A stretch of DNA of 64,000 nucleotides, from positions 18,714 to 82,713 of the forward strand of contig WGOC01000005.1 of NCBI GenBank assembly GCA_016124235.1, read 5' to 3'. Below are positions 1 to 9,474 of the stretch, one piece after another. A model generated the notes under the pieces. That model had not been told where the DNA came from. It saw only the letters and a list, made by a program, of their open reading frames with translations, and made no database searches. Each line of letters begins with the position of its first letter. Within the stretch, counting starts at the first letter, position 1. The translations under genes were made by a program, and so were the position numbers. This stretch comes from a bacterium. GTDB taxonomy: Bacteria > Verrucomicrobiota > Verrucomicrobiia > Limisphaerales > RI-55.

Positions 1-3000
1 TGATAAACCAAAAAAGGTGGGGCCCAGCGAACCTTGTTTGCCACCGAACTGACACGATAGGTCACAATCGGGGAAGCGATGACATTCGGCGACTTGCCAT
101 TGTCCTCCATGGCGACGACCCAGAGGTACTGGCCCTTTACGCTGACGGTGGTCCCCTGCACCTGATTGATCTGCGCGTCAAGATCACCTCCGACCACGAC
201 AACCAGATCGTTGCTTTGCACTTGCCCGTGCTGGCTCCGCTTGTAGTCGTAGTGCGGAACAACCACCAGGTCACGGGGCTGGCCGCGCAACGGAACCCGG
301 TTCAAAAACTTGGGTTGGAGCGGAGTCGAGATATCATAAATGCTCAACTGATCGGCCGGCGGGCCTTGCTCAACCACGTACAACCGGTTGCCGCTGATCG
401 CCGCGCCACGACCGTTGACGACGCCTCCCAACGACGCACTCGACGCGGGCGGCGTACGAAAGGTCGTCGTGAACGTCTCCGCTGAATCGGTACTTGGAAG
501 CTGATCGAGCGGTTGCCCGGCCAGATCGCGAACCGACTGGCCCGACAGCGTCAATCGATACTCACCATCGGGATTCAAGCCCGGATACTGCAGGCTCAAT
601 GACTGCTGACTCGCGCTCAGCCGGACGATGGGAGCAACATCAGTTGCCGATCCGCTCAGTGTGATTCCCTCCAGATGATTCGTGACGTACGAATCAATGG
701 GTTTGTTGAAGAACAAAATAATCTGACCATCTTCGCCCACGAAGCCGTCGTTCGACGGCTTGACCTCCACGACCAATGGACCATGCACGTCATTGGTATC
801 TGGCGCTGGAATATTCGGGACTGGAGTCGGCGGTTGGGGACCGGTGAAGGCGACTCCGTAGGGTATGTTGGCGTCCTGAAAAAAGTTCTGGCCGCGAACA
901 TTGACCTGCAGCTGGGCCAGAACCGGGCGGTTCACGTTCAACGTGCCCGTCCAGCGTGAGCTGGTACCGATTTTGGCAAGATTCGCATTGTCCAACGAAT
1001 ACACCACGTTGGTCTCAACCTTGCCGGTTAACAGGTTGGTCCGGCCCATCTGAACGATCTTGACCTTGATGTCCGGCGCTTCGACGGGCTGGGATGCGTT
1101 GACAATGATTTGAGCTGGTTGACCGGCGGCCGGTTGCACCGGTACGGTGGAAATGCTTACAGTCGGCGGCGTTTCCGTGTCGGACGGCACTTGGAAAAAG
1201 AAGTTTTTGTAAACGACACCAGAAAGGGTCAGATCGCCCTGTTGGCCCGGAACGAAGTTAAGCGGATTGGCCGACTCAGTCTGGGTATCTTGAAAACGCG
1301 GGTGCGTGGCGGTCACAACATAATTCGCGCCCGCTGCCGGCGCCACAGTCAGGAAGTATCCGTCGGCGCCCGATGTGGCGTAGACCATGCCCGGAAACAA
1401 TCTGCCGGCCTGCCGGTTTAACGGTCCGCCACTCAGGCTGACCGTCACGAACGCGCCGCTCAACGGCTTTGAAATCACCAATGCCCGTTGGTACATCGCC
1501 GTGTAGGCAGCACTGACAAAGGCCTGGGCCTGGCCCACCACAAATCCCAAATCCACCAGCCCCATCGTCTGCGCCAAGTAGACCGGGATGTCCACACTAC
1601 CATTTCCCGTCTGCAGGTTGACCGCCGAATTGATCACTCCGGCACGTTGCAATTCGAGCGCGACATCATACGGCAGCGCGGCAACCTTGCCTTTGATAAC
1701 GACCGGACGCGGGCCAAAAAGCAACGGAACCAATACCTGGTTGAACCCAATCTGAATCGGTAATGCTGCAGGACCAAGCGCTGGAAGGACCAAACCAATC
1801 GAGGTATCCAGAAATCCGTCCGCCACCTGCTGGCTGTCTCCACTTTGAATCCTAATCGCACCACCGGGTTTGAATGGAGCGGGTGTGTTCGTCCGCGGCG
1901 TAAACAACATCTGGTCCCTGATCTCGTAGGTGGTGATGTCCTCGGTATCGCGCACGACGGCCAACGCGGCCGTCACGTTCGTCGGCGCTTCATTGGTCGG
2001 ATACCCCGCCGCCGTCAGATCAACGGGAAACCTCACTTGCATTGGCAGCGTGGGTGGATTGCCTTCCACGTGCAGGTTAAGAGCCGTTCCGGCCACTGTG
2101 GCATTGGTTGGCATCACACCGCCCACCTGACTCTGAAGTTCGAGCACGTTCAGTGGATCTATCTTAAACTTGGTACGGCCCTGAATCGCGTTTGGGGGCA
2201 GGCTTATCGTGACTGGGCCGGCGTCGCTCTGGACCTGCAGGTCGCCACCACGGGAATACAAACCGACAAAACCATCATCGAATTCCTGCCGACTCACCGG
2301 CACGTAAACGCGCGTTCCATTCAAATTCACAAATGTCGCGCTGATCACATCCTCCTCCGTGCCGTTGATGAAGCTGCTGAAACTGCCGTCCGGTTTGCTA
2401 AGCACGGTCTGCGTCTCCCCGGAATCCTCGTTCACCAACACCACCGGCACTGCGGGATCCGCGACTCCCGGCTGCCCATGCACGACAATCGCATACGGAT
2501 CATCTCCCGGCGTAAACGCCGGAATCTCATTTTGAATCTCCACCGGCACGTTGGTGGCCCCGGGCTCGTAAATTACGAGTTGAGCAGTCGTGATCCGAGT
2601 GCTGGGCGCCACCGTTGTAAAACTAAATTCTTTTGAGCCTTCGAGCGCCATGCCGGTCGGATCCGCGATCGTGGAAGCCAACCGCACGCGATAGATCGTG
2701 CTGGAATCGAGATCCGTGGCGGGGCTCAACGTGGCCGTCGTGTTCTTCAGATCCAACGTCAACGAGGCCGGTACCACTGAATCATCTGGTTTGAGGATTT
2801 GAATGGCGTCGCCAACGACCGTTGCCGGATTGACGGCTTCGGTGAAACGAATCACTACACTGAGCACTCGAGCAACCTGTGTCGCGCCGTCAGTCGGCGA
2901 AATGGAAGCCACACGTGGACCGGCGGGCGCGGTGCCAAGATCCTGCCCCACTGGAATCATCGGATCGGCGACATTAGCGGTCGCGAAGCCGGTATCGCCG

Positions 3001-5864
3001 GTCGTCGGATCAGTGACGCCAACTTCTACGTCACCGGTCGGTGCCACTAGTTGGTAGCGGCCCTGATCATCGGTCAGTGTGAGCCACGGGAGGCCGGTCA
3101 ATCGGACCGGCATGCCCGCTTGCACATTGCCTTGTCCGTTACGCGCCACACCACTGATCAATCCCTGCGGTTGCGCGACTTCAACCAGAACGTATTGTCC
3201 GGATCCTCGCAGGCCGGCGAGAGCTTCGCCGGTGGTTGGTTCAAGACTATTCAGGTTGCCGTTGGCATCGCTTTGCAGGCGTTCGATTGGTTGCAGACCG
3301 TAGATACCCACATCACTCAACACACGGGCCAAAACAAACAATCCGTTGGTGGGCGCACCGGTCAGTTGCGGAACCAAGCCACCGCTGACCGTCGAGCGAT
3401 CAACCGTCAGATCAAAGGCACCAACGACCTCGAACCCGTCCGCCATCAAGTTGGTGAAAACGGTTGAATCCACGCGGCGAAGTCGCAGGGCGCTGGGTCC
3501 GGTCAACTGGCCGCTGCCCGCGAGGACACGAATTCCATCCGCGCCGATTTGACCACCGTTGGTATCCAGCGCGATGCCATCGAATGTCCCTTGCGGAAGC
3601 ACGTCGACACGAACGGCCGCCTCGTCCAGTTGGTCGGGACCAAACAGTAAAACAGGGCGCATTGGAAAACTGGCGTTCAGCGTTTGCGGATCCTGATCAC
3701 CCGGCCTCTGATATCCCACAATGTATTGCTCATACTGCGGCGTCAGGCGAAGCGATCCGTCGCTCAACAAATAGGACTCCGTGACCTCACCGCGCAGCAG
3801 ATAACCACTCGGCAAGTTAGCGGTGGCATGTTGAATCTTTAGATTGGCCGTGCCCGTCGCGAGCGCCGGTATCACGCTCGCGGGGCTCGCCGGTGGCGTC
3901 ACACTTCCGTCCGCCGTCAGGCCGGCCGCGTCAATTTCCGCGGGCAGATCGTATCCTTGGAGCGCCGCGCCCACCTGTGCAGGCGGCGGAGCGGTTTCCC
4001 CAATGTCCGCCACGACCAACGCGTAAGCGCCCGTCGCACCGAGACTGACATTCAGGACATTGGTGCCGTTGCCCGGAACGGTTTGTTCGACCGTCCACTG
4101 CAAGGCGTTGGTGTTCCACCTCACCAACGCCGCCAATTCCGTTGCTCTGATTGCGCCCGTCGGCTTGAGTTTTGCCGCAAGCGGCGATGCAAATGGACTA
4201 TTCGCTTCGATCCAGAATGCGTTCAGCGGACTCCAACCCAGCGGGAGGAACGCGGGAAGATTTTGTCCGGTCAGTGGCGTCAAGGTGACCGTCGTGCTTT
4301 GATTCACAATGCCCGAGCCAAAATCGATCGTGATCGAACCGGTCGCGTTGGTAACCTGGGTTCCACCAAGCGGTGATACAACGAACGTATTTTCCGATCG
4401 TTTGGTCAGCCGTGGGTTGGGAAGCACAGCCGTCTGATCGAGCGTCAGGTCTTGTTTTCGCCAAACCGGAAGATAGCCGTCCGTCACAAATTTCACGATG
4501 TGCTCTCCCGGTCCCTGACCAAATGATGCGACGCCCGATGGTGAATCACTCAACTGACTCGTACTTCCGGCAGGTCCCGCGATATCCAACTCGACTCCCG
4601 GCAACGGCTGGCCAGCGTCGTTCAGACTCCTCGTGATCCCGAGCGCCGCCGCCTTGGGCGGACGTGCCACAAAAAACTTGGTGACCAGCGACGGCGCCGA
4701 CGTTCCGCTTCGGCCCAGCATCAACGTTCGTTTCCCGGTTCCCTGCCCCGGTGCCAATGACGCATCCGCGGACCAACCACTGAGATCAAGGAATTGTTTT
4801 CCGCTTGCTGTCGCCCCGTCGCTCAGCTGGATTCCGGTTGTCCCGGAAAACGAATCCACGAGCAGCACTAATGGTCCGGCAAGGACGCGCGCCGACGTGT
4901 TGGTCACCGCGACCTCAACGTTCCAAACGTTGAGCGCGCGGTTAAGGCGCATGGAACTGAAATAGACAGACACATCAGAGGAAGCTTCCTGCAATGTGAT
5001 GTCGCCCCCATTCAGATGAAACGCCTGCTCTGTCTGCGCGTCTGCACGCAAAGGCAGAAGAACAACCGCGGCCAACAGGAAAAAAATGAAAAAGCGAAGC
5101 CACTTTTCCGAAAGCCCCCTCCGACGGTGCGTCGAGGTTCCATCTCTACTGAATCGCGATTCGTCATCGCTCTTGGCTTCGCTGGCGAGTGCTTTGGCCG
5201 CATGACCGCGAATCAACTTTCTCTGGTCGAACTGGTTGAATGCCAGCAGGCCAATTCCGCCGGCCAGGAGAAGCCCCCACGTCGCCGGTTCCGGAACGAC
5301 GTTCAAATCGGCAAACCAACCCTGCGAGGCGATTCCATTGTCGTTGTTGAACAGATCGAAATAAAGCGTCAACGGCTGACCGACCGCCTCCTGCGGCAGT
5401 GCGACTTTGATGTCGTAAGCCCATTGATAGTTCAAACTCGGAGTCAGGCTCGGATAATCAATTGGCATTCGCAGAATGCTCGATTCGGCAAGCAAGGTCG
5501 CACCCGGTGTCGGCGGTGCCCAGACCACGCCGGACGGATCTACCGTCACCAAAACCATGGTTAGAAACGCCAGATCATCCTGAATCGTCAGCGTGAAGGA
5601 ATCGCCAAAGGCTCCCGGCTGCAAAACTTCATCGGTGGCAAAACCGAACTTCAACTCCAGCAACGGATTCGAAACGTCGTTCGCAACCGAGAATGCCGAT
5701 TGGCCCGAAATTAGAGACTGACCGGCCGTCGTATTGTAGACCACTGGCGAAAACGTGCCTTGGCCAAAAGCAAAGCTGCCTCCGAAAAGATTAAGAACGA
5801 GCATTAAGGACAACGGACCTGGAAATCGGAACCGATTGAATTGCCTATGGTTACAACTTGCCAT
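1..5864 (-). CDS. Giant secreted Ig-like/adhesin-type protein fused to an N-terminal PEP-CTERM protein (3' end outside window)
   Basis: One minus-strand frame is open from the ATG at 5864 to the left edge (at least 1,954 codons), so it is absent from the ORF track. Residues 1-34 are a signal peptide. Residues about 35-185 are a small secreted domain. Residues 191-216 are a PEP-CTERM signal (VPEPATWG, hydrophobic stretch, QRK). I checked every codon from there to the next part and found no stop. Residues 254-276 are a second signal-peptide-like stretch (KWLRFFIFFLLAAVV) ending in ADA. The rest has carboxypeptidase-regulatory-like segments, SbsA/Big_5-like Ig domains near residues 990 and 1700, and an LVIVD-like stretch near 1820. 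A role in cell-surface or extracellular attachment is inferred. The fusion may be real or may reflect an indel in the A7 tract at 5080-5086; a separate gene would then start at about 5143-5167. Confidence 0.85.
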   Translation of the reverse strand, partial: MASCNHRQFNRFRFPGPLSLMLVLNLFGGSFAFGQGTFSPVVYNTTAGQSLISGQSAFSVANDVSNPLLELKFGFATDEVLQPGAFGDSFTLTIQDDLAFLTMVLVTVDPSGVVWAPPTPGATLLAESSILRMPIDYPSLTPSLNYQWAYDIKVALPQEAVGQPLTLYFDLFNNDNGIASQGWFADLNVVPEPATWGLLLAGGIGLLAFNQFDQRKLIRGHAAKALASEAKSDDESRFSRDGTSTHRRRGLSEKWLRFFIFFLLAAVVLLPLRADAQTEQAFHLNGGDITLQEASSDVSVYFSSMRLNRALNVWNVEVAVTNTSARVLAGPLVLLVDSFSGTTGIQLSDGATASGKQFLDLSGWSADASLAPGQGTGKRTLMLGRSGTSAPSLVTKFFVARPPKAAALGITRSLNDAGQPLPGVELDIAGPAGSTSQLSDSPSGVASFGQGPGEHIVKFVTDGYLPVWRKQDLTLDQTAVLPNPRLTKRSENTFVVSPLGGTQVTNATGSITIDFGSGIVNQSTTVTLTPLTGQNLPAFLPLGWSPLNAFWIEANSPFASPLAAKLKPTGAIRATELAALVRWNTNALQWTVEQTVPGNGTNVLNVSLGATGAYALVVADIGETAPPPAQVGAALQGYDLPAEIDAAGLTADGSVTPPASPASVIPALATGTANLKIQHATANLPSGYLLRGEVTESYLLSDGSLRLTPQYEQYIVGYQRPGDQDPQTLNASFPMRPVLLFGPDQLDEAAVRVDVLPQGTFDGIALDTNGGQIGADGIRVLAGSGQLTGPSALRLRRVDSTVFTNLMADGFEVVGAFDLTVDRSTVSGGLVPQLTGAPTNGLFVLARVLSDVGIYGLQPIERLQSDANGNLNSLEPTTGEALAGLRGSGQYVLVEVAQPQGLISGVARNGQGNVQAGMPVRLTGLPWLTLTDDQGRYQLVAPTGDVEVGVTDPTTGDTGFATANVADPMIPVGQDLGTAPAGPRVASISPTDGATQVARVLSVVIRFTEAVNPATVVGDAIQILKPDDSVVPASLTLDLKNTTATLSPATDLDSSTIYRVRLASTIADPTGMALEGSKEFSFTTVAPSTRITTAQLVIYEPGATNVPVEIQNEIPAFTPGDDPYAIVVHGQPGVADPAVPVVLVNEDSGETQTVLSKPDGSFSSFINGTEEDVISATFVNLNGTRVYVPVSRQEFDDGFVGLYSRGGDLQVQSDAGPVTISLPPNAIQGRTKFKIDPLNVLELQSQVGGVMPTNATVAGTALNLHVEGNPPTLPMQVRFPVDLTAAGYPTNEAPTNVTAALAVVRDTEDITTYEIRDQMLFTPRTNTPAPFKPGGAIRIQSGDSQQVADGFLDTSIGLVLPALGPAALPIQIGFNQVLVPLLFGPRPVVIKGKVAALPYDVALELQRAGVINSAVNLQTGNGSVDIPVYLAQTMGLVDLGFVVGQAQAFVSAAYTAMYQRALVISKPLSGAFVTVSLSGGPLNRQAGRLFPGMVYATSGADGYFLTVAPAAGANYVVTATHPRFQDTQTESANPLNFVPGQQGDLTLSGVVYKNFFFQVPSDTETPPTVSISTVPVQPAAGQPAQIIVNASQPVEAPDIKVKIVQMGRTNLLTGKVETNVVYSLDNANLAKIGTSSRWTGTLNVNRPVLAQLQVNVRGQNFFQDANIPYGVAFTGPQPPTPVPNIPAPDTNDVHGPLVVEVKPSNDGFVGEDGQIILFFNKPIDSYVTNHLEGITLSGSATDVAPIVRLSASQQSLSLQYPGLNPDGEYRLTLSGQSVRDLAGQPLDQLPSTDSAETFTTTFRTPPASSASLGGVVNGRGAAISGNRLYVVEQGPPADQLSIYDISTPLQPKFLNRVPLRGQPRDLVVVPHYDYKRSQHGQVQSNDLVVVVGGDLDAQINQVQGTTVSVKGQYLWVVAMEDNGKSPNVIASPIVTYRVSSVANKVRWAPPFLVY
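5080..5086. repeat. A7 (T7 on coding strand) homopolymer at the fusion junction
   Basis: Seven consecutive A on the plus strand lie inside the second signal-peptide-like segment of the giant ORF. With T7 the downstream protein is in frame with the PEP-CTERM protein. With one extra T, a frame beginning at ATG 5203, 5167 or 5143 would join the downstream protein and give a good signal peptide (basic N-region with RR, then a hydrophobic core ending in ADA). The tract could be a sequencing indel, a slippage site or neither. Confidence 0.6.
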
Positions 5865-8793: not shown

Positions 8794-9474
8794 TCAGGTC
8801 AACGATGCCGCGCCAACGGGGGTTCGTTGCGAGGAATACCCTTTCAACACCGCTATACTGCTAAGAGCCAGTCCTGCCAGTGCCAGCGTCGATCCACCAT
8901 CGGGAATGCCTTTCGAATGGGTATCACCACCGGGCAATCGGAATTGAAAATTGGGTCCGATATAAGCGTCGTACGCCTGGTTGGCCTGATCCGGAAACTG
9001 AAGCCCCAAGCCAGAATATGTGTAGCGGCCTCGATTCAACTGCGTAATCTGAGCCGCTGTAGTTGTGCCGCTATTCGAGACCATCCACGGATCGGAAGCG
9101 GACGGAGCCAAGCTCAGCCAGTAATCTTTCCCGGCGACCAGCGTGAATTCTGATACCGATGCGTAACGATAGCGGTCGGAATCCAGCGCAGCACTTGTTC
9201 CCATCGGAATTGTTACCGAACCAAGAAGAGTTTGCGACGCGTCAAAAATGCCGACCACAGGTGTTCCGACAAAACCGTCGGCACCCCAATCGTAGGCACC
9301 CAGCGCGGTCACAACAATGTCGTCGTTGACCGTGAATGCCATACCGACGTTTGCCGTGGCGTCATATACTGGTCCACCCGTTGTTCCCGGAGTAAAGGCG
9401 GTGATGGCGCTCGACGCCTGAGTTGATGCTACGATCAGCGCACACGCAGCCAGAGTATTTGCGATTCGTTTCAT
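8794..9474 (-). CDS. Secreted protein with PDGG-type (VPDSG-CTERM-like) C-terminal sorting signal
   Basis: The product is 226 aa with a signal peptide (KRIANTLAACALIVASTQASSA). The middle resembles the DUF4082-like beta-sandwich: NVGMAFTVNDDIVVTALG, GIFDASQTLLGSVTIP, LVAGKDYWLSLAP. The C-terminus has IPDGGSTLALAGLALSSIAVL followed by KGYSSQR, a variant of the VPDSG-CTERM signal handled by exosortase-type systems. An unusual nine-residue tail follows the last Arg. AAAGGA five to six bases upstream of ATG 9474 is a good ribosome-binding site. It is probably surface-displayed or extracellular matrix material. No exosortase gene is in the window. Confidence 0.75.
   Translation of the reverse strand: MKRIANTLAACALIVASTQASSAITAFTPGTTGGPVYDATANVGMAFTVNDDIVVTALGAYDWGADGFVGTPVVGIFDASQTLLGSVTIPMGTSAALDSDRYRYASVSEFTLVAGKDYWLSLAPSASDPWMVSNSGTTTAAQITQLNRGRYTYSGLGLQFPDQANQAYDAYIGPNFQFRLPGGDTHSKGIPDGGSTLALAGLALSSIAVLKGYSSQRTPVGAASLT

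Follow-up and report, generated by a model that had tools for sequence, protein, structure and literature searches.

What is a PEP-CTERM sorting signal doing in the middle of an open frame? Such signals lie 'virtually without exception' near the C-terminus (Haft, 2006; PMC1569441), and the sequence-only reading of this DNA was right, against that literature, to call an internal one odd. The window analysed here, by which we mean the whole stretch of 64,000 nucleotides (C31:18714-82713), comes from a MAG of 47 contigs that is 56% complete. Its minus strand carries an open frame of 4,372 codons (C31:11459-24577), which starts at ATG 5864, runs down to window position 3 and was followed beyond it with the flanking DNA to its end at C31:11459; 1,954 of the codons lie inside the window. 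Translation confirmed that a complete PEP-CTERM protein reads through 37 linker codons into another signal-peptide-like segment and on into a giant protein, as had been proposed. The order along the frame is a signal peptide, an ectodomain, the PEP-CTERM signal VPEPATWGLLLAGGIGLLAFNQFDQRK, the linker, the segment KWLRFFIFFLLAAVVLLPLRADA and a giant Ig-like/RHS-repeat protein. In window coordinates the features are as follows.

5763-5864, minus strand: first signal peptide, residues 1-34 (MASC...GGSFAFG), from the translation, with its hydrophobic stretch and position judged by inspection.
5298-5762, minus strand: ectodomain of the PEP-CTERM protein, residues 35-189, a predicted beta-sandwich (21-row alignment and AlphaFold2; homologues in about 30 loci).
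5217-5297, minus strand: internal PEP-CTERM sorting signal VPEPATWGLLLAGGIGLLAFNQFDQRK, residues 190-216 (TIGR02595 above cut-off; P and E invariant).
5106-5216, minus strand: linker of 37 codons, net positive and predicted to be cytoplasmic, with codon usage that is clearly coding in no frame.
5213-5215, minus strand: TGA of the +1 frame directly after QRK, outside the open frame (codon listing).
5037-5105, minus strand: internal signal-peptide-like segment KWLRFFIFFLLAAVVLLPLRADA, residues 254-276, strongly hydrophobic and placed as the N-terminal signal peptide of the split homologues.
5080-5086, minus strand: T7 tract (A7 on the plus strand), not conserved in the other fused junctions.
3-5036, minus strand: N-terminal 1,678 residues of the giant RHS-repeat protein (residue 277 on), which continues outside the window to C31:11459.
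2613-2921, minus strand: Big_5 bacterial Ig-like domain, residues 982-1084 (PF13205, E 3.6e-18).

By sequence score the internal signal qualifies as a PEP-CTERM signal: TIGR02595 matches it with 23.3 bits in the genome-wide search and with 18.5 bits on the protein (cut-off 16), and Pfam PF07589 comes just below its own cut-off (20.5 versus 20.7). Its position does not qualify, as more than 4,100 residues follow. The five other PEP-CTERM matches of the same genome reach a stop 25-32 residues past the V of VPEP, so that the window signal is the sole one of the six without a near stop after the basic cluster, its frame continuing for more than 500 residues. The P and E of the PEP motif are invariant in the alignment of the homologues (21 of 21), and exosortase (PF09721) was found in all nine genomes tested, with two matches in the genome of the window. 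The locus thus shares with PEP-CTERM/exosortase (EpsH, PF09721) sorting the PEP motif, the hydrophobic helix, the basic cluster, the N-terminal signal peptide and the exosortase genes, and differs from it in that the signal is internal and a second signal peptide comes after it, as do about 4,100 residues. The window also encodes, on the minus strand at 8794-9474, a VPDSG-CTERM protein of 226 residues (TIGR03778, 22.6 bits, cut-off 22) with a DUF4082/choice-of-anchor-R-like domain; this adds another exosortase-type substrate, of a different kind, close to the locus.

The downstream protein had been described as Ig-like, which is correct for its Big_5 domain, but RHS-repeat protein is the more precise name. 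In addition to Big_5, it carries DUF6531, RHS repeats and an RHS-associated core (Rhs_assc_core), these three being located outside the window; the RHS repeats match PF05593 with an E-value of 4.5e-16 and the core matches TIGR03696 with 61.4 bits (cut-off 32.5). The last 300 residues, after the RHS core (L008 463-1362, minus strand), gave no Pfam family and nothing usable in NCBIfam, as expected for the variable tip of an RHS protein. The order of DUF6531, RHS repeats, Rhs_assc_core and variable C-terminal region is that of RHS-repeat/polymorphic-toxin-like surface proteins; here, however, Ig-like and other domains totalling about 2,200 residues precede it and a PEP-CTERM partner accompanies the giant. 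The longest homopolymer of the giant gene is a run of eight G in its RHS part (codon 3053; L008 approximately 4415-4422, on C31 outside the window), a likelier site of slippage or error than T7.

Is the association with a PEP-CTERM protein peculiar to this genome? Among 58 relatives searched, five giants were found (41-60% identity), each with a PEP-CTERM-type protein directly upstream. A profile of the first 500 residues of the giant was then searched in 320 genomes of the order, in the GTDB collection and in a class-wide draw. It matched in 37 of the 320 genomes and at 15 loci of the GTDB collection, all in Verrucomicrobiota-type MAGs where named, and the class-wide draw added one distant giant (G415). 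A PEP-CTERM-type gene stands directly upstream of the giant in about 30 loci, which frame and stop analysis divides into 26 split and four fused. In the split loci the two genes are in different frames, or in the same frame with a stop between them (L013, L030), and in the fused loci, namely the window (L009), G047 (L011), G317 (L028) and G319 (L064), there is no stop. The only near relative of the window compared, G001 of the same genus, has neither the giant nor a fused junction. Our literature search, which had partial coverage, found no description of a pair made of a PEP-CTERM partner and a giant RHS protein.

The sequence-only reading had included the fusion of two genes among its explanations, and this one is borne out: the relatives mostly have two genes, and a single frame is found in three lineages, one of them with two species of one genus. 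These lineages are the window, G047 and the genus of G317 and G319, which are separately deposited MAGs (JAEUHD010000073 and JAFLEG010000179, respectively). G317 and G319 share only 49% identity over the ectodomain and junction, and both retain VPEP, the helix, the Arg cluster, a loop of a few residues, the second signal segment and the same giant start, with the Arg cluster almost directly abutting the second signal peptide (junctions VPEPGLVSLLVLGGAGVWWAGRRRGGRPGGGSRLLLGLALIGGGVIGANRTVAA and VPEPSSVVLLVLGAFALVWGIRRGRPGFRASALWMVAGWIASVPGALQAA, respectively). The giant of G319 is ended by a contig edge after about 120 residues. On the giant tree G317 and G319 (the g118 pair) are sisters (support 99/98) and G047 is placed elsewhere; the fused state takes three changes on the best tree, and its starred branches force at least two. 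One frame in four loci of three lineages, with G317 and G319 this far diverged, indicates that the fusion recurs and that one case of it has been conserved. The fused loci are not repeats of a single event within one assembly. The fusion of the window may be common with that of the g118 pair or may be independent. Separate genes in the homologues had been put forward as a sign that the fusion is an assembly artefact. Separate genes are indeed present in most relatives but not in all, and the fusion is therefore not made an artefact. Overall, the comparison supports the fusion for the class and makes it likely, although not certain, for the window, where the fusion is less firmly established than in G317 and G319 because the linker looks non-coding.

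How could such a frame be used? We consider, with moderate confidence, that it is probably the fused form of a conserved two-gene pair, giving one precursor that two internal cuts would convert into the same two mature proteins. In all four fused loci the second segment corresponds in place and hydrophobicity to the signal peptide with which split giants begin, the frame being uninterrupted through the internal signal peptide in each, and the junction loops are net positive in the three loci counted. Positively charged loops stay cytoplasmic according to the positive-inside rule, which would place the linker in the cytoplasm. Since a PEP-CTERM helix has its end on the inside, where a signal peptide starts, the two would join as a hairpin with both ectodomains outside, and the topology of an internal PEP-CTERM is workable once the second signal peptide is counted. 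In the proposed pathway, one precursor would be translated and its first signal peptide would export the ectodomain; the PEP-CTERM helix would cross the inner membrane inwards, the basic linker would remain in the cytoplasm, and the second signal peptide would cross back outwards, followed by the giant. Exosortase would cleave at the PEP motif, and signal peptidase I after ADA, at an AxA-type site (predicted site of the KWLRFFIFFLLAAVVLLPLRADA segment, ADA|Q). The two cuts would release the mature proteins that the separate genes also yield, here in a 1:1 ratio, and this equivalence would account for both signals having been kept intact and for the fusion having arisen more than once. What we infer from the sequences is translation through the junction, the membrane topology, cleavage at both sites and the fate of the products at the cell surface.

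An alternative, which we regard as unlikely, is that indels in the window conceal a normal pair, with the PEP-CTERM gene ending at TGA 5213-5215 and the giant starting from ATG 5203, 5167 or 5143. The +1 frame does contain a TGA and ATGs in the right order: ATG 5167 and ATG 5143 are in this frame as had been claimed, ATG 5203 likewise, and the TGA had been missed. Most relatives are split, and the codon usage of the linker has no clear preference for frame 0. For codons 221-259 the per-codon score is -0.08 in frame 0 and -0.14 in the +1 frame, in both cases lower than in any equally long coding stretch of that gene; from ATG 5167 onward the +1 frame is slightly ahead, and a coarser test on longer segments favoured frame 0 more than this finer one. 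The linker of the window may be former intergenic DNA. The T7 tract (A7 on the plus strand) at 5080-5086 is real, and one extra T was said to place the giant in the frame of ATG 5167 or 5143, with a clean signal peptide. The giant does gain a start in the T8 form, but the PEP-CTERM frame then has no stop and runs about 80 codons beyond QRK to FFPVGRGCSSAFACRRADRAGVSSEWGRHHIAGSFL, reading into the start region of the giant. Two clean genes would thus require two indels about 130 bases apart, the second before the +1-frame TGA. Two such errors are unlikely, because the other long frames of the window (1,432, 1,081, 1,024, 811 and 811 codons) are uninterrupted. The fusion is moreover found in three other MAGs, two of them of one genus.

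If the frame is indeed open, the giant could still be made mainly by internal initiation, at a TTG (codon 217) in the window and at a GTG in G047, the read-through product being minor or degraded. G047 provides the best case for this: a strong Shine-Dalgarno sequence, AAGGAG, precedes an in-frame GTG by five bases, this GTG lies upstream of the second signal peptide and is overlapped by a TGA of another frame, and the giant may therefore start independently there. The TTG of the window is likewise in frame and directly follows QRK. On the other hand, inspection of G317 found no Shine-Dalgarno-like start in the stretch from the Arg cluster to the second segment, and ribosomes that start at the PEP-CTERM gene meet no stop in any of the four fused loci. 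Internal initiation as the main source of the giant seems to us rather improbable.

It is more doubtful still that the fusion is real and its internal signals stay uncut, the giant being held in the membrane by two helices with the PEP-CTERM protein ectodomain as an extra outer domain. Two hydrophobic helices are predicted, and Haft and co-workers suspected that the rare PEP-CTERMs located far from the end are non-functional (PMC1569441). Against this, the P and E of the motif have not varied, exosortases are present, and G317 and G319 retain signal-peptide-like residues before the giant despite 51% divergence. Finally, the idea of T7 as a phase-variable slippage switch between fused and separate forms can hardly be right: the tract does lie between the +1-frame ATGs and the core of the second signal, which one added T would connect, but runs of seven are expected by chance and are under-represented here (two A/T runs of at least seven in the window versus 9.4 expected, which leaves T7 unremarkable in itself), its absence from the other fused junctions deprives phase variation there of comparative support, and T8 spoils the end of the PEP-CTERM gene by leaving it without a stop.

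The precursor cut at two internal sites, which remains our preferred reading, can be set beside two known cases. One is the Bradyrhizobium fbcH cytochrome b/c1 precursor, in which a bacterial polyprotein is processed at an internal signal peptide; it differs in yielding respiratory subunits and in having no PEP-CTERM, and it is not homologous. Our own search, of partial literature coverage, returned no bacterial example of polyproteins with internal signal peptides. The nearest mechanism that we found in the literature searched is that of mammalian IGSF1. After a duplication, the signal peptide that had begun the downstream protein came to lie inside the IGSF1 chain, where signal peptidase cuts it; the authors of that work knew of no other cellular protein processed in this way (PMC9162367). 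IGSF1 and the present locus are alike in having one chain that retains, as an internal signal, the former N-terminal signal peptide of the downstream protein. IGSF1, however, is processed in the eukaryotic ER without an exosortase-type cut and is not homologous.

Extending the reading from the window to all of the fused loci is a more tentative step, which goes somewhat beyond what we would assert. Internal PEP-CTERM, basic loop and internal signal peptide could together form a removable hairpin, from which exosortase and signal peptidase I would generate equal amounts of an anchored surface protein and a giant RHS protein; this class might have arisen more than once from the conserved pair and been stably inherited in at least one genus. 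PEP-CTERM signals have been regarded as tails that end a protein and are taken off, and both their definition and the searches for them follow this view. A conserved example inside a chain, if true, would mean that exosortase can act with a large protein still attached downstream. The fused locus would offer a natural test substrate, in which the linked giant reports whether and where the cut occurs, and the gene pair itself links exosortase sorting to RHS proteins.

AlphaFold2 was run on the 21-row alignment, and the order of parts that it gave is in line with the precursor cut at two sites. The ectodomain is a confident beta-sandwich (pLDDT mostly above 90), followed by a long helix, a loop of low confidence, a second helix and a second beta domain. 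A fold search with the model gave weak jelly-roll/lectin-like matches only (TM below 0.4), which were set aside. The NF038129 family of PEP-CTERM proteins matches 16 of the 21 partner proteins weakly; in the window copy the match is confined to the C-terminal signal and lies under the curated cut-off. In five loci (L037, L038, L039, L041 and L060) the partner has no PEP-CTERM and instead carries a longer C-terminal region of another kind, with repeated ESSA...GPY...FYRL-like units. At L055 (the same as L033, in G093) and L037 (the same as L063, in G071) the N-terminal domain of the giant is divided between two frames, which points to a frameshift or assembly error inside the giant there. In genome G078 the whole PEP-CTERM/giant pair occurs twice, as diverged copies on C96 and C71 (L027 and L080).
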